The notes under the pieces are model-generated. The model was not told the DNA's origin, searched no databases, and saw nothing but the letters and a program-made list of their open reading frames with translations. Positions 10,245 through 19,330 of a stretch of DNA of 64,000 nt are shown piece after piece (positions within the stretch are counted from its first letter, which is position 1; each line of letters starts with the position of its first letter). Origin of the DNA: an uncultured bacterium (GTDB lineage Bacteria; Cyanobacteriota; Vampirovibrionia; Gastranaerophilales; Gastranaerophilaceae); assembly GCA_902801985.1 (NCBI GenBank), contig CADCKD010000015.1, positions 1 through 64,000 of the forward strand, in the 5' to 3' direction. Both the position numbers and the translations under genes were made by a program.

Positions 10245-10476
10245 ATGAGTATGTTTAGTAAAAAAATATTATTTGCAGCTATATTGTGTGGTTTATTTGC
10301 AGCGGATGCCGCAAATGCTATTACAAGATAACACTGTTCCGGTAATTGAAAATAATTCTGTTATCAATATGAACACTGCCGAAACCGGTAAAATAACTAT
10401 AAATGATACTCTTTCCGGTTCAGGAACAATAAATATAAATAAAACTAACAAAATGCTAATAATTTTGATAGTATAA
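10245..10476 (+). pseudogene. Frameshifted remnant of a secreted beta-helix/adhesin-like protein
   Basis: An ATG at 10245 opens a good signal peptide (Lys-Lys, hydrophobic core, AADAANA cleavage site) that stops after 28 codons at 10329. Directly after, in the next frame, the sequence reads TVPVIENNSVINMNT and then TGKITINDTLSGSGTININ. This is the Asn/Thr-rich style of autotransporter or large adhesin passenger domains. A third frame continues with NANNFDSIIN just before the response regulator gene. One extra base near 10320-10328 would account for the first break. The remnant is only about 75 codons long, so most of the original gene is gone. Its 3' part now carries the promoter of the two-component operon. 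Confidence 0.55.
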
Positions 10477-10477
10477 T
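10445..10477 (+). promoter_or_regulatory. Direct-repeat operator plus -10 for the two-component operon
   Basis: CTAAC (10445-10449) and CTAAT (10456-10460) form a direct repeat with an 11-base period. Eleven bases further is TATAAT (10472-10477), and 6 bases after that is the ATG of the response regulator. This is the layout of PhoB/OmpR-activated promoters, where the bound regulator replaces the -35. The same arrangement precedes the efflux operon and the lpxA fragment, suggesting autoregulation. Confidence 0.55.
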
Positions 10478-10483
10478 TAATTT

Positions 10484-11176
10484 ATGAGCATAAAAGATGC
10501 AAAAATACTTATTGTTGAAGATGAGATTCAACTAAATAGAGTTATGGAGCTTATGCTTCAAGCTGACGGCTACTATAAAATAAGATGCGCATTTGACGGA
10601 AATGAAGCACTAAATCTTATTAAAGCAGACAAGCCGGATTTAATTTTGCTTGATGTTATGATTCCGGAACTTGACGGTTTTTCTTTGTGCAAAATAATCA
10701 AAAATGACAACATTTACAAAAATACAAAAGTAATTATGATAACCGCAAAAAAAATGGAAGAGGATGTCCTAGAAGGCTTTAGGGCCGGCGCTATTGATTA
10801 TATTACAAAACCTTTCAGCAATAAAATTCTTTTAGCTAGAATAAAGGCTCATTTAGAGTCTTTGAATTCCGTTGGCGGCATAAAAAAATATAAAGATATT
10901 ATTATTGACACTGATAAAATGATTGTAAAAGTTCAGGATAAAGAAGTTGAGTTGACAAATTTTGAATACAAAATTTTAGATACTTTTATTTCAAATATCG
11001 GAATAGTTTTCAGCCGTTCTTCCCTGCTTTCAATACTGAGAGGAGATGAAGGTTTTAATATATCAGAGCGAGCTGTTGATGTTCAAATTGTAAATTTGAG
11101 AAGAAAACTCGGCCAAAGAGGACAAGATATAGAAACAATTAGAGGCTCCGGATACAAATTAAGGGAAAATGCATGA
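10484..11176 (+). CDS. OmpR/PhoB-family response regulator
   Basis: The 230-residue protein has a receiver domain (about 6-120) with acidic pair Glu12/Asp13, phospho-acceptor Asp57 in LLDVMIPELDG, Thr87 and Lys109 (TKPF). A C-terminal winged-helix DNA-binding domain (about 130-228) ends in the usual VQIVNLRRKLG...GSGYKL. Such proteins are phosphorylated by a partner histidine kinase and bind 11-base direct repeats. The kinase gene follows with a 4-base ATGA overlap. There is no Shine-Dalgarno, and TATAAT lies 6 bases before the ATG, so the message may be leaderless. Probable targets are its own promoter, the efflux operon at 12974-18723 and the LpxA fragment, judged from shared operator sequences. 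Confidence 0.93.
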   Translation: MSIKDAKILIVEDEIQLNRVMELMLQADGYYKIRCAFDGNEALNLIKADKPDLILLDVMIPELDGFSLCKIIKNDNIYKNTKVIMITAKKMEEDVLEGFRAGAIDYITKPFSNKILLARIKAHLESLNSVGGIKKYKDIIIDTDKMIVKVQDKEVELTNFEYKILDTFISNIGIVFSRSSLLSILRGDEGFNISERAVDVQIVNLRRKLGQRGQDIETIRGSGYKLRENA

Positions 11177-12561
11177 AAAAAAGAGATTTATTTTGGATAA
11201 ATAAGATTATATGGCTGCTTGGTATTTTAGCAGTTTTTATCGTGATTTCTTTATACAATTTTATTCAAATAAATCATTTGCATTTAGACGGTGAAAAAAA
11301 TGAAATAAATTTTTATAAAAAACAAATAAAGCTGGCCGCAACACCCTATTTGTCAAAAAATGATAATTCCGGATTAATGGAATATTGTGAAAATTTCAAA
11401 AACGAAAATGATGTTTCTTTTCAAATTTTCGATAAAGATAAAAAGTTAATTGCCGGAACAAGACTTGATAATAAAGAACTTGATCAGGATACTCATATAC
11501 TTGACAGCCAATTGAGCAAATGGGAAAAATACAAAAGCATCATAAAACAGCAAAAATTATCCGATATTAGTGAATTTGATATAAAAAATAAAAAATACTA
11601 TCTTGAACTTGTTTTACAGGAAGATGATTTTGTTTCTTCATTAATAAATTCTCAAATAAATATAATCATATTCTTTGTTATTTGTTTGCTCCTTTTGAGC
11701 GGATATTTTATTTATGTTTTTTCAACCATCAGAAATTCGTTTAACAACTTGGAAGACAGTGTTGTAAAAATTTCAAATGGCGAATTGGATACAGAAGTCA
11801 AAGTTTCAAAAGAAGGGCTATTGCAAGAAATATCTATTGCAATTAAACTAATGACACTAAAATTAAAAAACCAAATTGTAAGACTAAAAAAATTGGAAGA
11901 ATACCGTTCGATTTTTATTCAGGATATGACACACGAAATAAAAACTCCAATTGCAACAATTAATTCTGCAATTGAACTTTTGGATACAAAAAATTCAATT
12001 GCAGATAGTGATAGGGAATGCTTTGATATAATACTTTCTCAAACTGACAATATTAATAAACTTGTAAATGATATTTTATCACTTTCTGAAATTGAACTTG
12101 AACAAACTAACGAAAACAAAAATTTTACAACATTTAACCTTAATAAAATGGTAGAAAAGGCTATTTCTTATATAAATATACAAAATACAAATATTTCTTT
12201 CTCGCCAAAATGCGATTTAGAAGTTTTTGCAAATGAAGATTTGCTTATTACAGCAATTATAAATCTTCTAAATAATGCCATTAAATACTCACAATCCTCA
12301 AAAATTGATGTAATCACAGAGCAAGAAAACGGAAATACAATAATTTCCGTAATAGATTACGGCATAGGAATTCAAGAAGCTCATTTAGATAAGCTATTTA
12401 CAAGATTTTACAGGGTAGATAAAGCAAGAAGCAGAAGAACAGGCGGAACAGGTTTGGGACTTGCGATTGTAAAACATATTGCTCAACTCCACAAAGGAAG
12501 TGTAAGTGTAGAAAGTGAAGTCGGTAAAGGCTCAACTTTTAAAATTATTTTACCGCAATAA
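11173..12561 (+). CDS. Membrane sensor histidine kinase (HAMP-HisKA-HATPase)
   Basis: This 462-residue kinase has two membrane segments (about 12-30 and 163-184) that bracket a periplasmic sensing region of about 130 residues. A HAMP linker follows, then the H-box DMTHEIKTP with phospho-His254, and the N, G1 (DYGIGI) and G2 (GGTGLGLAIVKHIA) boxes of the ATPase domain. It should autophosphorylate and pass the phosphate to the response regulator encoded just upstream. Translation is coupled through the ATGA overlap. The neighbouring efflux genes and LpxA fragment suggest the signal is envelope or drug stress, but the ligand cannot be read from sequence. Confidence 0.93.
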   Translation: MKKRDLFWINKIIWLLGILAVFIVISLYNFIQINHLHLDGEKNEINFYKKQIKLAATPYLSKNDNSGLMEYCENFKNENDVSFQIFDKDKKLIAGTRLDNKELDQDTHILDSQLSKWEKYKSIIKQQKLSDISEFDIKNKKYYLELVLQEDDFVSSLINSQINIIIFFVICLLLLSGYFIYVFSTIRNSFNNLEDSVVKISNGELDTEVKVSKEGLLQEISIAIKLMTLKLKNQIVRLKKLEEYRSIFIQDMTHEIKTPIATINSAIELLDTKNSIADSDRECFDIILSQTDNINKLVNDILSLSEIELEQTNENKNFTTFNLNKMVEKAISYINIQNTNISFSPKCDLEVFANEDLLITAIINLLNNAIKYSQSSKIDVITEQENGNTIISVIDYGIGIQEAHLDKLFTRFYRVDKARSRRTGGTGLGLAIVKHIAQLHKGSVSVESEVGKGSTFKIILPQ

Positions 12562-12628
12562 AATTACTACTTATGAATTACTATTCTAGCTTTTCATTAC
12601 CATCTGTATTTCTTTGTTTCGATCTATA

Positions 12629-12886
12629 TTAATCACGATCAATTCTCAAACAAACACCCCTTTTAGAATCTTTTATAAATTGAACCATTTTTTGAACATA
12701 TTCATTGCCAGAAATTTCTTCATTAATTTTTTCTATTGCCTGACTTGTATTATATTCACCAGAAACTAACAATTTATATGCTGAATTTATTTCTGTTCTG
12801 ACAGATTGTTCTACTCCACGTCTTTTTAAAGCTACAACATTAATCCCGACAGGATGTGCAAGTCTGCCATCATATTTTCTTCCCAT
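12629..12886 (-). pseudogene. lpxA: C-terminal domain fragment of LpxA (UDP-GlcNAc acyltransferase)
   Basis: The 85 residues align by eye with the last quarter of LpxA, the first enzyme of lipid A synthesis. HPVGINVVALKRRGV corresponds to the conserved linker after the left-handed beta-helix. The rest matches the C-terminal helical domain (NAYKLL, ending near FIKDSKRGVCLRI). The hexapeptide-repeat catalytic domain with its active His is absent, and no further LpxA-like sequence lies upstream, so it cannot be an acyltransferase. It is intact as an ORF with an ATG. It has its own regulator-type direct repeat and -10 (12912-12943), so a retained binding or regulatory role is possible. Otherwise it is a decayed gene. 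Confidence 0.65.
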
Positions 12887-12911
12887 TCTTAAATTCGTGC
12901 GCCTTATAAAA

Positions 12912-12943
12912 ATCTTAAAACTTAATTGTTAGTTTAAAGTTAG
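12912..12943 (-). promoter_or_regulatory. Direct-repeat operator plus -10 before the lpxA fragment
   Basis: Read on the minus strand, CTAAC-N6-CTAAC (12943-12928) is followed 10 bases on by TAAGAT (12917-12912). The repeat differs from the one before the efflux operon at only two spacer positions, and the flanking CCC and TAAA bases also match. This is a likely binding site for the OmpR-type regulator encoded nearby. Confidence 0.5.
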
Positions 12944-12973
12944 GGAACAACAGCTATAAAAATCAATAAAATG

Positions 12974-14176
12974 TTAATTCTGAGTTAATACTTCATTTTT
13001 TCTCCACTTAACAGTTTGTCCGTCTTGAAGATCGTCTGTTATGTTTATTATGAGATTTTCATCTCCATTGAGTCCTTCTAAAATTTCGACTTTATCGCCA
13101 AAATCACGTCCCGTAAGCACCTGTTGAAAATGAATTTTTCCTGATTTATTTACAGTTACAACATATCTACCGGTATTTAATGTAGTCAAACATGAAGGAT
13201 TAACCGTTATAATCTTTTCTTCTCCCTTAATATTAATATCTGATTTTACATACAACCCTGGATATAAAGCGGATTTTTCGTCATTATTTATAATTGCTAC
13301 AACTTCCATTGTTCGGGAAACAGGGTCCAATGTTTGTGAATTCTGAGTAATTACTCCTTTAAATTTATTTTTAGGATTGTTCGGAGTGTACAAATCAACA
13401 GTCATACCAAGTTTTACATAAGGAATGTAATTCTGGGGAATATTTAAACTTACCCTGAATTTATCAATTTGTTGAATTTCAAACAAACTTGTACTTGTAC
13501 TGCTTCCCCCTGCTACAACATTTGCCCCTACATCCACATTATATTTGCTTATTACTCCGCTAAACGGAGCACGAACATTCTTATAATCCATTAGAGCCTG
13601 AATTCTGTTTTTCATCGCCTGCGCTCTTTTAACTTCTGCTTTTGCTGCTTGATAATTCATTTCAGCAGTTTTAAATTCATTATATTTTGCATCAAGTTCC
13701 TGCTTTGAAATAGCACCGCCTTCTGAGGATTGTTTATATCTGTCATAACTTTGTTTGCTAAAATTGTATTGATATTCGGCTTCAAGCAGTCTTTTTTGTG
13801 CTGAAATCAACGTTGCAGTAGCACTTTGTCCTTCTTCATCCAAATCGGGAGAATCTATAGTCGCCAATAGCTGTCCTTGGACAACCTTATCTCCTAATTC
13901 AACATAACGCATCTTTATTATTCCGTTAATTCTTGAGAATATTTCAGTATGCATATAAGGTTTTAACTCACCGCTAAGTTCAAGAGCCGAATCTCCGCTT
14001 TCAATTTTCGGATTTTCATAAAGCGCAACGTATTCATAACTTTTAGCATTTTTCCACGCAATAATATCCCTTGTAACTTTGGGTATAAACCCAACTAAAA
14101 ACATAAAAACAAATACCCCAATAACACTTGATTTTACTTTATGCTTTTTAATTTTTTCCAGTATATTATTCATCAT
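12974..14176 (-). CDS. RND efflux periplasmic adaptor (MFP/HlyD-type)
   Basis: The 400-residue adaptor has one N-terminal membrane segment (about 14-32). A split lipoyl domain follows (about 85-105 and 205-235; GQLLATIDSPD and VRAPFSGVIS), then a coiled-coil hairpin (about 110-190), a beta-barrel and a membrane-proximal domain. It would bridge the inner-membrane RND pump and the TolC-type channel. Its start overlaps the pump gene's stop by four bases (ATGA). It is third in the operon outer-membrane factor, pump, adaptor, an unusual order since the adaptor is more often first. Confidence 0.93.
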   Translation of the reverse strand: MMNNILEKIKKHKVKSSVIGVFVFMFLVGFIPKVTRDIIAWKNAKSYEYVALYENPKIESGDSALELSGELKPYMHTEIFSRINGIIKMRYVELGDKVVQGQLLATIDSPDLDEEGQSATATLISAQKRLLEAEYQYNFSKQSYDRYKQSSEGGAISKQELDAKYNEFKTAEMNYQAAKAEVKRAQAMKNRIQALMDYKNVRAPFSGVISKYNVDVGANVVAGGSSTSTSLFEIQQIDKFRVSLNIPQNYIPYVKLGMTVDLYTPNNPKNKFKGVITQNSQTLDPVSRTMEVVAIINNDEKSALYPGLYVKSDINIKGEEKIITVNPSCLTTLNTGRYVVTVNKSGKIHFQQVLTGRDFGDKVEILEGLNGDENLIINITDDLQDGQTVKWRKNEVLTQN

Positions 14177-17100
14177 AATCCGTATTCCTCACTATATTTT
14201 TTATTTTTATTCATAATTGCAAATAGCATTGGTACAATTACCAAGGTCGCAAATGTTGCAAATAATAATCCACCGATTACAGTTCTGCCGATTGGAGCAT
14301 TTTGTTCTCCGCCTTCACCTAATCCCAAAGACATTGGCAACATACCCAAAATCATAGCAAACGCGGTCATTATAACCGGTCTTATTCGCGTAAATCCGGC
14401 ATCGACAGCTGCCCTTACAGAGTTAAATCCTTTTTTCATTTTATCTGTTGCAAATGAAACAACTAAAATAGAATTTGAGCACGATACCCCAATAGTCATA
14501 ATAGAACCCATCATAACCTGTATACTAAAAGTCGTATCCGTTGCATATAACATCCACAATATACCCGCCAAAGCCACCGGTACAGGGGTTATTATAATAA
14601 ACGGATTTCTCCAGGATTGGAAATTAGTAACAATTAAAAGGTATACCAAAATTAACGCCAGTAATAATCCTGAAATTAAAGAGGTAAATGCTGTTTTCAT
14701 AGCATTGGCTTGCCCTAAAATATTTATAAATGTTCCGCTTGGTGCTTGTTTTTCATATTTTTTAACAATTTTATGAATATCATCAGCAACAGAATCTAAA
14801 TCCCTATCCTGAATATTTATCAAAATATCGTAAACGGGCATGATATCATAATGATTTACAACACTCGGAGCTTTGCTTTCATGTATAGTTGCCACATTGG
14901 ACAAACGAACCGGCTTATTGCCGTTAAATGCCAGAGGAACATCCATTACATCTTTAACCGAATTTATCCAATACGGTGGTACTTGTAATGCCAGCAGATA
15001 ATTAACGCCATTTTCAGGGTCAACCCAATACGCAGGCATTGCTTGTGCACTTGATGAAAGTGCAATAATCATATTTTTCGCAACCTCTGCTTGTGTTAAT
15101 CCCATATCAGCTGCTTTTACTTTATCAACTTCAAGTTTTATTTCCGGATAGTCAGTAATTTGATGAACATGAGCATCTGCGACTCCTTTTACTTTTTTAA
15201 TATCATCAAGCATATTTAGAGCAAGAGCATAATTAGCTTTTGTATCTTCACCTTGTATTTGAACATCAATAGGGGAAGCCAGTCCAAAATTAAGAATTTT
15301 CCCGACCATATCAGCACTTTGGAAGAAAAACGTCATATTAGGATATTTTTCATTTAAAACTTTACGAAGTTTTTTAATATATTTCTGTGTAGGTTTGTGA
15401 TGTTTCTTTAGGGAAATTAAAATTTCACCATCACCCATTCCCAACTGTGAATTATCCATAAATGCAAGATTTAGCATACTTACAGGAATTCCGATATTAT
15501 CAAGCATTGTATCAATTTCTTTTTCAGGAATAACTGTTTTAATCGTTTTTTCTATATCAGAAAAAGCTCTTGCAGTATCTTCAATTCTGGTTCCGTGTTG
15601 AGCATATACATGAAGCCTGATTTGCCCCGCATCAACACTTGGGAAGAAATTCTCTCCGATAAACGGTAACAGGCAAAAGGAAATTGCGATAACAAGAGCG
15701 GAAAATTGCAATGTCTTTTTAGGATTTCTCATAACCTGTTTTACTAAGAACTGTTTATATACCCTTCTTAATTTAGCAAAACTTTTATTTACTGTTTCGT
15801 GCAAATTATATAATAATGTATCAGGTTTAAGCACTTCTTGTTTTTTTAACAGCTTATCAACCATAACAGGAACTATTGTATTAGATAGCAAATAAGAACC
15901 AATCATTGCACATATTACCGACAATGCCATTGGAGCAAATAAAAATTTTGTAGCACTTTTCATTAAAAATATAGGTGCAAAAACCATACAGATTGATAAT
16001 GTTGAAACCAAAGTAGGTACTGCAACTTCTGAAGCAGATTTACAGATGATTTCCTGCAAAGTCATTCTGTTTTTATAAATTTCTTTATTTCTTAAAATAT
16101 TTTCAAGCACAACTGTTGAATTATCTACAAGCATACCGATAGCAAGAGCCATACCGCTAAGAGTCATAATATTTAAAGTTTGCCCGCATAATGCCAGACA
16201 AATTATTGCAAATAATATTGATAGAGGAATAGAAACCGCAACAATAAACGTAGAACGTTTACTGCCTAAAAACAGTAAAATCATTAATGCTGTAAGAATA
16301 GCAGCAAGTGTTCCTTCAAAAACGACACTATGAATAGAACTTTTAACAAATATAGATTGATCAAATAATTCATGCATTTGAATTCCGGAAGGAACCATCT
16401 TTTTGATTACCGGTATTATTTTTTTACATCCTTCAACAACTTTGATTGTTGATGTTTTTCCCGCTTTATAAACAGTCATTAAACTGCCTGCAACCCCGTC
16501 ATGACGAACAACATTTTCCTGAACAGCATTTCCGTTATGAATATATGCAATATCCCTTAAATAAACTGTTTCACCGTCTTTTGATTTTATAGGGAACTTA
16601 TTCATTTCATCAATCGTTCTTGTTGCATTATTTAATGTTATATAATAATCAAATCCGCCTATTTTAGCGTTCCCTGAGGGCAATATGACGTTTTGTTCAG
16701 CAAGAGTATCTGTTATAGCTAAAGGCGTTAGAGCACGTGCTTCCATCTTTTGCATATCAAGGTCAACCATTATTTGACGCGACAAACCACCCATAGGTAA
16801 TGGAATTTGAGAACCCTCAACTTTAGACATTTGGACTTTTATTATATTTTGTGCCAAATCAGACACATCTAGTAGTGGAATTTTCTTTGAAGATACTACA
16901 ACCTGTAATACAGGAATAGTTGTAGGAGTGTATTTTATAACTTGCGGCGGTCTTATTCCAAGCGGCATATTGTTTAATGCAACTTGTGATGCCGAACTTA
17001 GTTGTGTTATCGCAGTATTGACATCAGCTCCGGGGTGCAAGAATACTTTTATTACCCCTACACCATATAGGGACTGAGATTCAATATGTTCAACATCATT

Positions 17101-17328
17101 CATATTTGCTGAATACGCACGTTCCGCAATTGATACAATACGATTTTCTACATCTTTAGCCGGCATTCCGTTGTAATTCCATACCGCAACAACGGCTGGA
17201 GTGTTGATTTCGGGGAATATATCCGTAGGAGTAAAAAATATCGCAACTAAACCTAAAATTAGAATGAAAAGAGCAAATACAAATACTGTATAATAATATT
17301 TTAAAGCTGCTTTTATAAATTTACTCAT
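14173..17328 (-). CDS. RND-family efflux pump, inner-membrane permease
   Basis: This 1051-residue protein has the length and two-fold layout of AcrB/MexB-like pumps. There is one N-terminal membrane helix, a large periplasmic porter loop, helices 2-6 (about 335-545), helix 7, a second porter loop and helices 8-12 (about 860-1035). GMLVDNSTVVLENI corresponds to the helix-4 proton-relay region. The second Asp of the usual VDD is Asn here, as in several RND subgroups. It exports drugs or other toxic compounds using the proton gradient. The start overlaps the outer-membrane gene stop by 8 bases. The substrate cannot be assigned. Confidence 0.92.
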   Translation of the reverse strand: MSKFIKAALKYYYTVFVFALFILILGLVAIFFTPTDIFPEINTPAVVAVWNYNGMPAKDVENRIVSIAERAYSANMNDVEHIESQSLYGVGVIKVFLHPGADVNTAITQLSSASQVALNNMPLGIRPPQVIKYTPTTIPVLQVVVSSKKIPLLDVSDLAQNIIKVQMSKVEGSQIPLPMGGLSRQIMVDLDMQKMEARALTPLAITDTLAEQNVILPSGNAKIGGFDYYITLNNATRTIDEMNKFPIKSKDGETVYLRDIAYIHNGNAVQENVVRHDGVAGSLMTVYKAGKTSTIKVVEGCKKIIPVIKKMVPSGIQMHELFDQSIFVKSSIHSVVFEGTLAAILTALMILLFLGSKRSTFIVAVSIPLSILFAIICLALCGQTLNIMTLSGMALAIGMLVDNSTVVLENILRNKEIYKNRMTLQEIICKSASEVAVPTLVSTLSICMVFAPIFLMKSATKFLFAPMALSVICAMIGSYLLSNTIVPVMVDKLLKKQEVLKPDTLLYNLHETVNKSFAKLRRVYKQFLVKQVMRNPKKTLQFSALVIAISFCLLPFIGENFFPSVDAGQIRLHVYAQHGTRIEDTARAFSDIEKTIKTVIPEKEIDTMLDNIGIPVSMLNLAFMDNSQLGMGDGEILISLKKHHKPTQKYIKKLRKVLNEKYPNMTFFFQSADMVGKILNFGLASPIDVQIQGEDTKANYALALNMLDDIKKVKGVADAHVHQITDYPEIKLEVDKVKAADMGLTQAEVAKNMIIALSSSAQAMPAYWVDPENGVNYLLALQVPPYWINSVKDVMDVPLAFNGNKPVRLSNVATIHESKAPSVVNHYDIMPVYDILINIQDRDLDSVADDIHKIVKKYEKQAPSGTFINILGQANAMKTAFTSLISGLLLALILVYLLIVTNFQSWRNPFIIITPVPVALAGILWMLYATDTTFSIQVMMGSIMTIGVSCSNSILVVSFATDKMKKGFNSVRAAVDAGFTRIRPVIMTAFAMILGMLPMSLGLGEGGEQNAPIGRTVIGGLLFATFATLVIVPMLFAIMNKNKKYSEEYGL

Positions 17329-18723
17329 GAATTCTACTCCCTAATGCTTTATATAAACTTACCGTATCTATTAACGATGCGGCTTTTGCTTTATTTGCAG
17401 CATTTTCATTTATTAAATATTGTCGTCTTGAATCCAGCTCATCAATTCTGTTGCCTATACCCGAAAGATATCTTGTATGCGCAACATCATAATAATGTTG
17501 AGAATTTGTCATCATTGCTTTGAAATCAACAAATGCTTTATAATCTGTCTTGTAACTTGACAGGCAATCTTCTACTTCTCTTACCGCATCAAGCAGCGTG
17601 TAATCATATTTATGCAATTTTTCAAGAGCAACTTCTTTATTATATTTTAGAAAATGCTTTTTATATCCTCCGGAATATAAATCAAGCAACATTCCTGCCC
17701 CAATCTGATAAACAATACTGTCCCAGTTTAATAATCTTCCGGCCCTAAAACTTTCAAAACCTACCATATCATTCAAATTAAAAGAAGGAAGAAACATTTT
17801 TTTTGCAACTTTGACATCAAATGCCGCTTTTTTAATAGCATACTCTGCCTGTATAACATCAGGCCTGTTGAACACTAAATCTGAATTAATTTCCGCATCA
17901 GGCAAAAACGGAAGTGTTGTTTCCTCCATTGTTTTGTGGTGAATATTTTCTTTAGGGGCGGCCGCTCTTAAAAAAGAGAAAGCATGTGACAAAATATCTC
18001 TTTGCTTATATAGTGAATTCAGTTCATTTTGGGTATTTATTTTTTCATACTCTGTAATATACAAATCATCATACTTTATTATTCCGCCTTCGTAGAGTTG
18101 TTTTTTTAGTTTAAGAACTTCTTCAAGATTTTCAAGAATTTCTTCTTCATTTTCTATCAATTCAGCAGTGAGAATAATATTAAAATACATTGCACAAACT
18201 TCTGAAGTTAGAGATAACTTGTTTATATTAACATCTTCCTTAGCTATTTTGACGTCATATCTACCGGATTGCACCTTGTCAGAAAGTTTGCCGAATATAT
18301 CAATTTCCCAATTAAACAATAAAGGCATGGAAATATCGTTGTAAGAACTATATTTTTTCCCTGACAGGGATTTATACGGATAAACACTTGGATTAACACC
18401 GATATGAGGGAGTCTTTGAGCATTAATTGTTCCAATAAAGCTTGTGATTGCCTTAATCTGTCGTTTGCAATTTTTAGGGATGGATTTTTTTCTAAAGCTT
18501 CAAAAACATATGATGATAAGTATTCATCTACATAATTTTCCCAAAAATAGTATAATTCAAATTTTTTATCATCTTCTTTATTTTTTTGTTGCTTGGTAAC
18601 ACCGGATTTTAAACTTGAAGATGCAGCAAAAACAGCATCGTTCATTCCGACAATCCCTAACATTAATAGCATTATAATTATGCATTTCATATATTTAAAC
18701 AATATATCCGTAATCAATTTCAT
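17321..18723 (-). pseudogene. TolC/OprM-type outer-membrane efflux protein, frameshifted
   Basis: The gene starts at 18723 with a signal peptide (hydrophobic core, cleavage near VFAASS). It reads through residue about 98 (DRLRQSQA), then leaves frame near 18441-18450. The downstream frame resumes with AITSFIGTINAQRLPHIGVN and continues to a proper C-terminus at 17321 with the alpha-barrel repeats of outer-membrane factors. Restoring one extra copy of CAATCACAAG (minus strand, at 18450-18441) rejoins both frames as RQSQAITSFIG. A 10-base deletion between tandem copies is therefore the simplest explanation. It is first in the efflux operon with the pump and adaptor. It could be a true pseudogene, a switchable gene or a sequencing error. 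Confidence 0.82.
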
Positions 18724-18751
18724 CCTTCTTAAAATAATCCATTCTGATACA

Positions 18752-18783
18752 ATATTAAAACAAAAATGTTAGTTTATGGTTAG
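18752..18783 (-). promoter_or_regulatory. Direct-repeat operator plus -10 for the efflux operon
   Basis: On the minus strand CTAAC-N6-CTAAC (18783-18768) is followed after 10 bases by TAATAT (18757-18752), about 29 bases before the outer-membrane-protein start. The arrangement equals that before the response regulator (10445-10477) and the lpxA fragment (12912-12943). It is the probable target of the neighbouring OmpR-type regulator. Confidence 0.55.
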
Positions 18784-18839: not shown

Positions 18840-19330
18840 AAGCTTTATGCGTGAGGGCTGGAGTGAGGGGCTTTAGACATTACTCCTCCCCTGCGGGTTA
18901 GGAGGTGGGGTAAGGTTTATCACCGCCCCTTGCGGGAGGGGGTAGGGGGTGGGGTACATTGATAAGTTTGATAAGTTGGATAAGTTTGATAGGTTTGATA
19001 AGTACACATCAGGTTCAGAATGACGTAACTATTTCTCCTCCCCTGCGGGAGGGGGTAGGGGGTGGGGTACATTGATAGGTTTGATAAGTTGGATAAGTTT
19101 GATAGGTTTGATAAGTACACATCAGGTTCAGAATGACGTAACTATTTCTCCTCCCCTGCGGGTAGGGGGTGGGGTAAGGTTTATCCCCGCCCCTTGCGGG
19201 AGGGGTAGGGGGTGGGGTACATTGATAGGTTTGATAAGTTAGATAAGTTTGATAGGTTTGATAAGTACAAATCAGGTTCAGAATGACGTAACTATTTCTC
19301 CTCCCCTGCGGGGGGAGGTTGGGTGGGGGA
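18840..19330. repeat. G-rich tandem repeat array
   Basis: The landmark GGGGTACATTGATA recurs at 18951, 19064 and 19214, giving unit lengths of 113 and 150 bases; the longer unit holds an extra G-rich segment of about 37 bases. Each unit contains a CCCCTGCGGGAGGGG-type palindrome, a run of G-tracts, a string of TTTGATAAG/TTGGATAAG-like short repeats, and the segment CAGGTTCAGAATGACGTAAC. Minus-strand reading frames through the array give only Thr/Tyr/Pro repeats and are not genes. Confidence 0.85.

Follow-up and report, generated by a model that had tools for sequence, protein, structure and literature searches.

A direct-repeat box shared by a response regulator gene, an efflux operon and an lpxA fragment suggests a small, partly decayed regulon in a Gastranaerophilaceae genome

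Introduction

The 64,000-nucleotide stretch of contig CADCKD010000015.1 analysed here (the window) carries a two-component gene pair, an RND efflux operon and a fragment of a second lpxA gene. The earlier note on this DNA proposed that one PhoB/OmpR-type box, CTAAC-N6-CTAAY, precedes all three and defines a small regulon. The question raised by this locus is whether the repeats are the operator of a single regulator, which regulator that would be and what it would control. In our literature search we found no published account of two-component regulation for this lineage. The related records are genomes assembled from metagenomes, several of them of rumen origin and some labelled Cyanobacteria or Candidatus Melainabacteria. 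The comparison covers a genus sample of 46 genomes and two further records, L026 and L027 (the latter being RUG621).

Results

Three boxed promoters in the window

The box occurs three times in the window, each time ahead of a -10 hexamer:

10445–10460, plus strand: candidate operator box of the response regulator gene (CTAAC AAAATG CTAAT, an 11-base direct repeat)
10472–10477, plus strand: -10 hexamer of the response regulator gene (TATAAT), 11 bases after the box
12943–12928, minus strand: candidate operator box of the former lpxA2 operon (CTAAC TTTAAA CTAAC)
12917–12912, minus strand: -10 hexamer of the lpxA2 fragment (TAAGAT), 10 bases after the box
18783–18768, minus strand: candidate operator box of the efflux operon (CTAAC CATAAA CTAAC)
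18757–18752, minus strand: -10 hexamer of the efflux operon (TAATAT), 10 bases after the box

These are the positions, orientations toward the named genes and spacings (10–11 bases) that the earlier note had claimed. Its full 32-base pattern fits the lpxA fragment and efflux sites; the response regulator site does not fit, being 33 bases long. None of the three promoters has a -35-like hexamer at a spacing of 15–19 bases from the -10, none is listed by a sigma-70 scan, and the expected -35 position falls inside the box. The sites thus show a direct repeat with a period of about 11 bases, placed about 10 bases before a -10 that has no -35, which is the operator geometry of the OmpR/PhoB family. 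The 11-base period, which had been given as known for this family, is indeed documented: PhoB operators consist of two 11-base units (PMC4415409), the repeats of PhoB-activated promoters lie 10 bases before TAN3T (PMC1906773), and the PmrA operator TTTAAG-N5-TTTAAG has the same period, with half-sites CTTAAT and CCTAAG in K. pneumoniae (PMC10927774).

Dinucleotide shuffles predict 0.22 exact copies of the box in the window, against three observed. For box plus -10 the expectation is 0.02 copies, again against three; both expectations are partly circular, as the pattern was derived from these same sites, and the genome-wide and comparative tests below are less so. The efflux and lpxA promoters are alike over more than 30 bases and share extra flanking sequence. 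They may derive from one ancestral promoter, so the two sites are not fully independent.

Occurrence in the whole genome

The genome is AT-rich and comprises 2.135 Mb in 74 contigs. It contains five exact boxes, of which the two outside the window lie within long open frames and have no -10; we rejected both as operators on these grounds. Box plus -10 is confined to the three window sites, so the genome-wide scan proposed in the earlier note returns a non-random distribution. A sequence model of the site, built from 20 sites, gives the three window sites 33.2, 32.7 and 23.4 bits, scores that are not independent because these sites belong to the model. The next match (C3:86117, 15.2 bits) lies within an open frame and was rejected. 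The model scan of the genome found no further strong site; since its first look scored 150 candidates, weaker sites might escape it.

Conservation of the regulator site

Orthologues of the response regulator are encoded in 9 of the 46 genus genomes. The box ahead of the regulator gene is intact in RUG621, L026 and G015, where it consists of three 11-base units in tandem, and carries one change in G028. It is degenerate in G005, G022 and G032, despite an intact regulator and kinase. The 33-base box-plus-promoter segment is 94–100% identical among the window, G015, RUG621, L026 and G028, whereas over the 60 bases upstream identity is 17–37% for all pairs other than RUG621/L026, two records that are similar throughout, this region included. 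The site is therefore an island in unrelated DNA. More distant orthologues, whose regulators are 58–68% identical, have CTAAC-N6-CTAAC (G024), CTAAT-N6-CTAAT (G007) or TTAAC-N6-TTAAC (G025), always 10 bases before a -10. The match to the G024 orthologue (L034 10632–11309) spans an in-frame stop, and this gene is perhaps broken or misassembled.

The box is also kept beside the orthologous efflux outer-membrane gene and beside the intact second lpxA. Together with the genome scan, this conservation supports the shared box and small regulon that were originally suggested, and makes the case stronger than it was first put. It bears equally on the view that the repeats have no regulatory function and reflect chance or shared ancestry. 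An AT-rich genome and the likeness of the efflux and lpxA promoters would suit that view, but the low expectation for box plus -10, the conserved 33-base island and the geometry retained at distant genes with differing flanks make it hardly credible.

Distribution of boxes in the genus

Boxes concentrate in the genomes that carry this regulator. Across the 46 genomes, 11 of 16 exact-pattern matches fall in the nine regulator-bearing genomes, and the reversed control pattern is near even (9 of 36 matches in the same nine). Counted by genome, the association of the exact pattern gives a Fisher p of 0.0014, or 0.004 minus the window genome, with relatedness ignored. Model matches at E<0.01 occur in seven of the nine regulator genomes and in two of the 37 others (Fisher p 2e-5, a value that likewise ignores relatedness and comes from a model built from the sites themselves). 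The two model-positive genomes without the regulator are G063 and G067. Pattern matches in G007 (C64) and G030 overlap coding frames and were attributed to chance; a match in G018, with no obvious promoter setting, was judged the same. The G007 (C64) match is one of the 11 counted in the regulator-bearing genomes.

Beyond the core locus the boxed targets differ among genomes. An extra Na/Pi symporter gene adjoining the kinase is boxed in G032, PMT-family glycosyltransferases are boxed in G067 and, with one mismatch, in G024. Boxed metallophosphatases occur in G007 and in G067, where the protein is the shorter of the two.

The regulator and its kinase

The boxed gene pair on the plus strand encodes:

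10484–11176, plus strand: OmpR/PhoB-family response regulator, 230 aa (Response_reg and Trans_reg_C)
11173–12561, plus strand: sensor histidine kinase, 462 aa (predicted extracytoplasmic PAS-like domain, HAMP, HisKA and HATPase_c)

PF00072, PF00486, PF00512 and PF02518 all score above their cutoffs, as befits a two-component system of the OmpR/PhoB family. In the window, as in seven orthologues, exactly 6 bases separate the end of the -10 from the regulator ATG, so the mRNA is predicted to be leaderless, a property that would be conserved. Directly upstream of the box, at 10246–10440, is a short open frame whose start resembles a signal peptide; after it comes an apparent remnant of repeat/adhesin-type sequence.

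Because the same box stands at three gene groups and is kept in relatives, it is very probably the binding site of this regulator. The genome encodes several other OmpR-type regulators, and one of these might instead bind the box, making the two-component genes merely another target. G067 could be taken to point this way, as it has two boxed genes and no orthologue of this regulator at E<1e-40. Against this stand the strong co-occurrence of box and regulator in the genus, the box ahead of the regulator's own gene even in orthologues that are 58–68% identical, and the decaying pump operon of G063, which lacks the regulator. Binding by another regulator is accordingly quite improbable, and the regulator encoded at 10484–11176 remains the favoured candidate.

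The more serious rival is that regulator and kinase act as PhoB and PhoR and that the box is a Pho box. Among NCBIfam models, those for PhoB and PhoR score highest on the pair, for which reason we considered filing it as PhoBR. The boxes are similar to the Pho box of cyanobacteria, CTTAACCT (PMC1906773), and the boxed extra symporter of G032 and the metallophosphatases of G007 and G067 would fit a phosphate role. With a Z of 9.9 and an rmsd of 2.6 over 98 residues, 3cwf is the closest solved full-domain match to the kinase sensor domain; it is an extracytoplasmic PAS domain and comes from a two-component kinase that we take to be B. subtilis PhoR. WalK-type sensors rank near it, and the comparison is to be read cautiously, as the model has a pLDDT of 77.

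The regulator, however, scores 189.9 bits on the PhoB model, under the cutoff of 296.2, and another regulator in the same genome reaches 212.7 bits. That type of regulator is the top PhoB match in each of the ten genomes searched, also where this system is absent. PstC above cutoff was found in none of ten genomes of the genus. On these three grounds the regulator is not a PhoB orthologue, and the PhoBR filing was rejected. The genus's main Na/Pi symporter (~590 aa) has no box, and RND efflux and lpxA would be unusual Pho targets. A phosphate role is thus the main rival but an unlikely one. Other named regulators fit no better: the scores are 112.9 bits for AdeR (cutoff 340), 149.1 for BaeR (380) and 110.8 for PmrA, the last far under its cutoff of 330.

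The efflux operon

Three adjoining minus-strand genes follow the third box:

17321–18723, minus strand: TolC-type outer-membrane efflux gene, frameshifted and present as two ORFs, 18244–18723 and 17321–18328
14173–17328, minus strand: RND inner-membrane pump of the AcrB/CusA superfamily, 1051 aa (PF00873)
12974–14176, minus strand: RND membrane-fusion protein of the HlyD/AcrA type, 400 aa (TIGR01730 above cutoff)

Fusion protein, pump and outer-membrane factor together identify an RND operon, in which the pump reaches none of the cutoffs for named drug or metal subfamilies. The outer-membrane gene, frameshifted in the window, is one intact ORF of ~460–467 aa in G015, G022, G032 and G063, and the frameshift may be an assembly error. 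The box is kept ahead of this gene in the same four genomes. In G063 (L122 11312–14925) the boxed outer-membrane gene persists beside a pump frame truncated to 718 aa, with no adjacent fusion-protein frame and no two-component genes at the efflux locus, which is decaying in this genome. At 18880–19330, upstream of the operon, the otherwise AT-rich window contains head-to-tail GC-rich repeats with TTTGATAAGTTGGATAAG units.

The second lpxA

The remaining box precedes a truncated gene:

12629–12886, minus strand: C-terminal fragment of lpxA2, 85 aa (PF13720 only; hexapeptide-repeat domain absent)

The label of lpxA fragment is correct: PF13720 alone was found, the intact catalytic domain of LpxA is absent, and the short frame starts just past the promoter. 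The same box stands ahead of an intact lpxA in RUG621 (9837-) and G032 (L123, 4207-), where the product has 261 aa and, for RUG621, passes the LpxA equivalog cutoffs. In both genomes two genes come after the boxed lpxA, encoding a GH13/TreS-like protein of 680 aa and an acyltransferase-3. Across G015, G022, G032 and RUG621 the box precedes intact lpxA2 and intact efflux genes.

An lpxA-type gene is present in all 14 genomes searched; a second, boxed copy was seen in G032 and RUG621, and the window genome has it as the fragment. The RUG621 copy is 71–72% identical to four housekeeping copies, all from genomes other than that of the window (G006, G007, G009 and G025). The GH13-like and acyltransferase genes are missing from the window between kinase and fusion protein (12561–12974); G015 is without the GH13-like gene, and G022 and G028 are without a second lpxA at this locus. 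Comparison with the relatives, where an operon headed by lpxA survives intact, indicates that the promoter of the fragment is a relic of that operon, and the term regulon therefore suits the ancestral system better than this genome.

Discussion

A proposed circuit

We consider it about 75% probable that the box is the operator of the regulator encoded at 10484–11176 and that it defines a small, autoregulated envelope-defence regulon of the OmpR/PhoB family with class-II-type activated promoters. The kinase would sense an extracytoplasmic signal through its PAS-type domain, and a dimer of the phosphorylated regulator would bind the two 11-base half-sites head-to-tail. With the -35 position inside the box, the regulator would recruit RNA polymerase to the -10 without a -35, in the class-II manner of PhoB, and so act as an activator and not a repressor. 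It would switch on the leaderless regulator–kinase pair to which it belongs, as well as the neighbouring RND efflux operon. In relatives it would also activate the operon of second lpxA, GH13/TreS-like enzyme and acyltransferase-3, and elsewhere a glycosyltransferase, metallophosphatase or extra Na/Pi symporter gene.

The output of the circuit would be efflux together with surface-lipid remodelling. Read from gene content, its role is most likely that of a compact envelope-defence circuit. In the window genome the reading frames for the regulator, the kinase, the fusion protein and the pump are all open. The proposed regulon is partly broken here, with an lpxA fragment, two missing operon partners and a frameshifted outer-membrane gene, and its output has decayed in part.

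Relation to known systems

The system shares with the Pho box of PhoB (E. coli; SphR in cyanobacteria) a regulator of the same family, 11-base direct repeats upstream of a -10 of the form TAN3T, the lack of a -35 and, in one relative, a boxed Na/Pi symporter. It differs in the half-site, CTAAC as opposed to CTGTCAT or CTTAACCT, in the missed PhoB cutoff, in the lack of a detected Pst system in ten genomes and in its main targets, efflux and lpxA. PmrA/PmrB likewise combines an 11-base-period direct repeat with surface-lipid genes, a further likeness being the boxed PMT-family glycosyltransferases of G024 and G067; its targets differ, and the locus described here shows no pmrC, naxD or arn operon.

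A two-component regulator linked to an RND operon is also found in AdeRS, which controls AdeABC from neighbouring genes through a direct repeat (PMC5947904), and in DzrR, which controls DesABC (PMC10052836). The AdeR repeat has a 10-base period and lies in a spacer between divergent genes, as against a period of 11 in the present system, in which each unit, the regulator gene included, has its own box.

Implications for the lineage

The system is thus of a known type, with the regulated second lpxA as a mildly unusual feature. The analysis offers a concrete candidate operator and a closed target set in a lineage whose genomes represented here are all metagenome-assembled, and it makes the loss and decay of such a circuit visible across one genus. 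It also links efflux under regulation with a second lipid A gene copy that is itself regulated. That a two-component system of gut/rumen Melainabacteria switches on a second LpxA isozyme together with efflux is a tentative proposal, which we hold to be possible but doubtful. If true, transcription would alter an early step of lipid A synthesis when an envelope signal is sensed.
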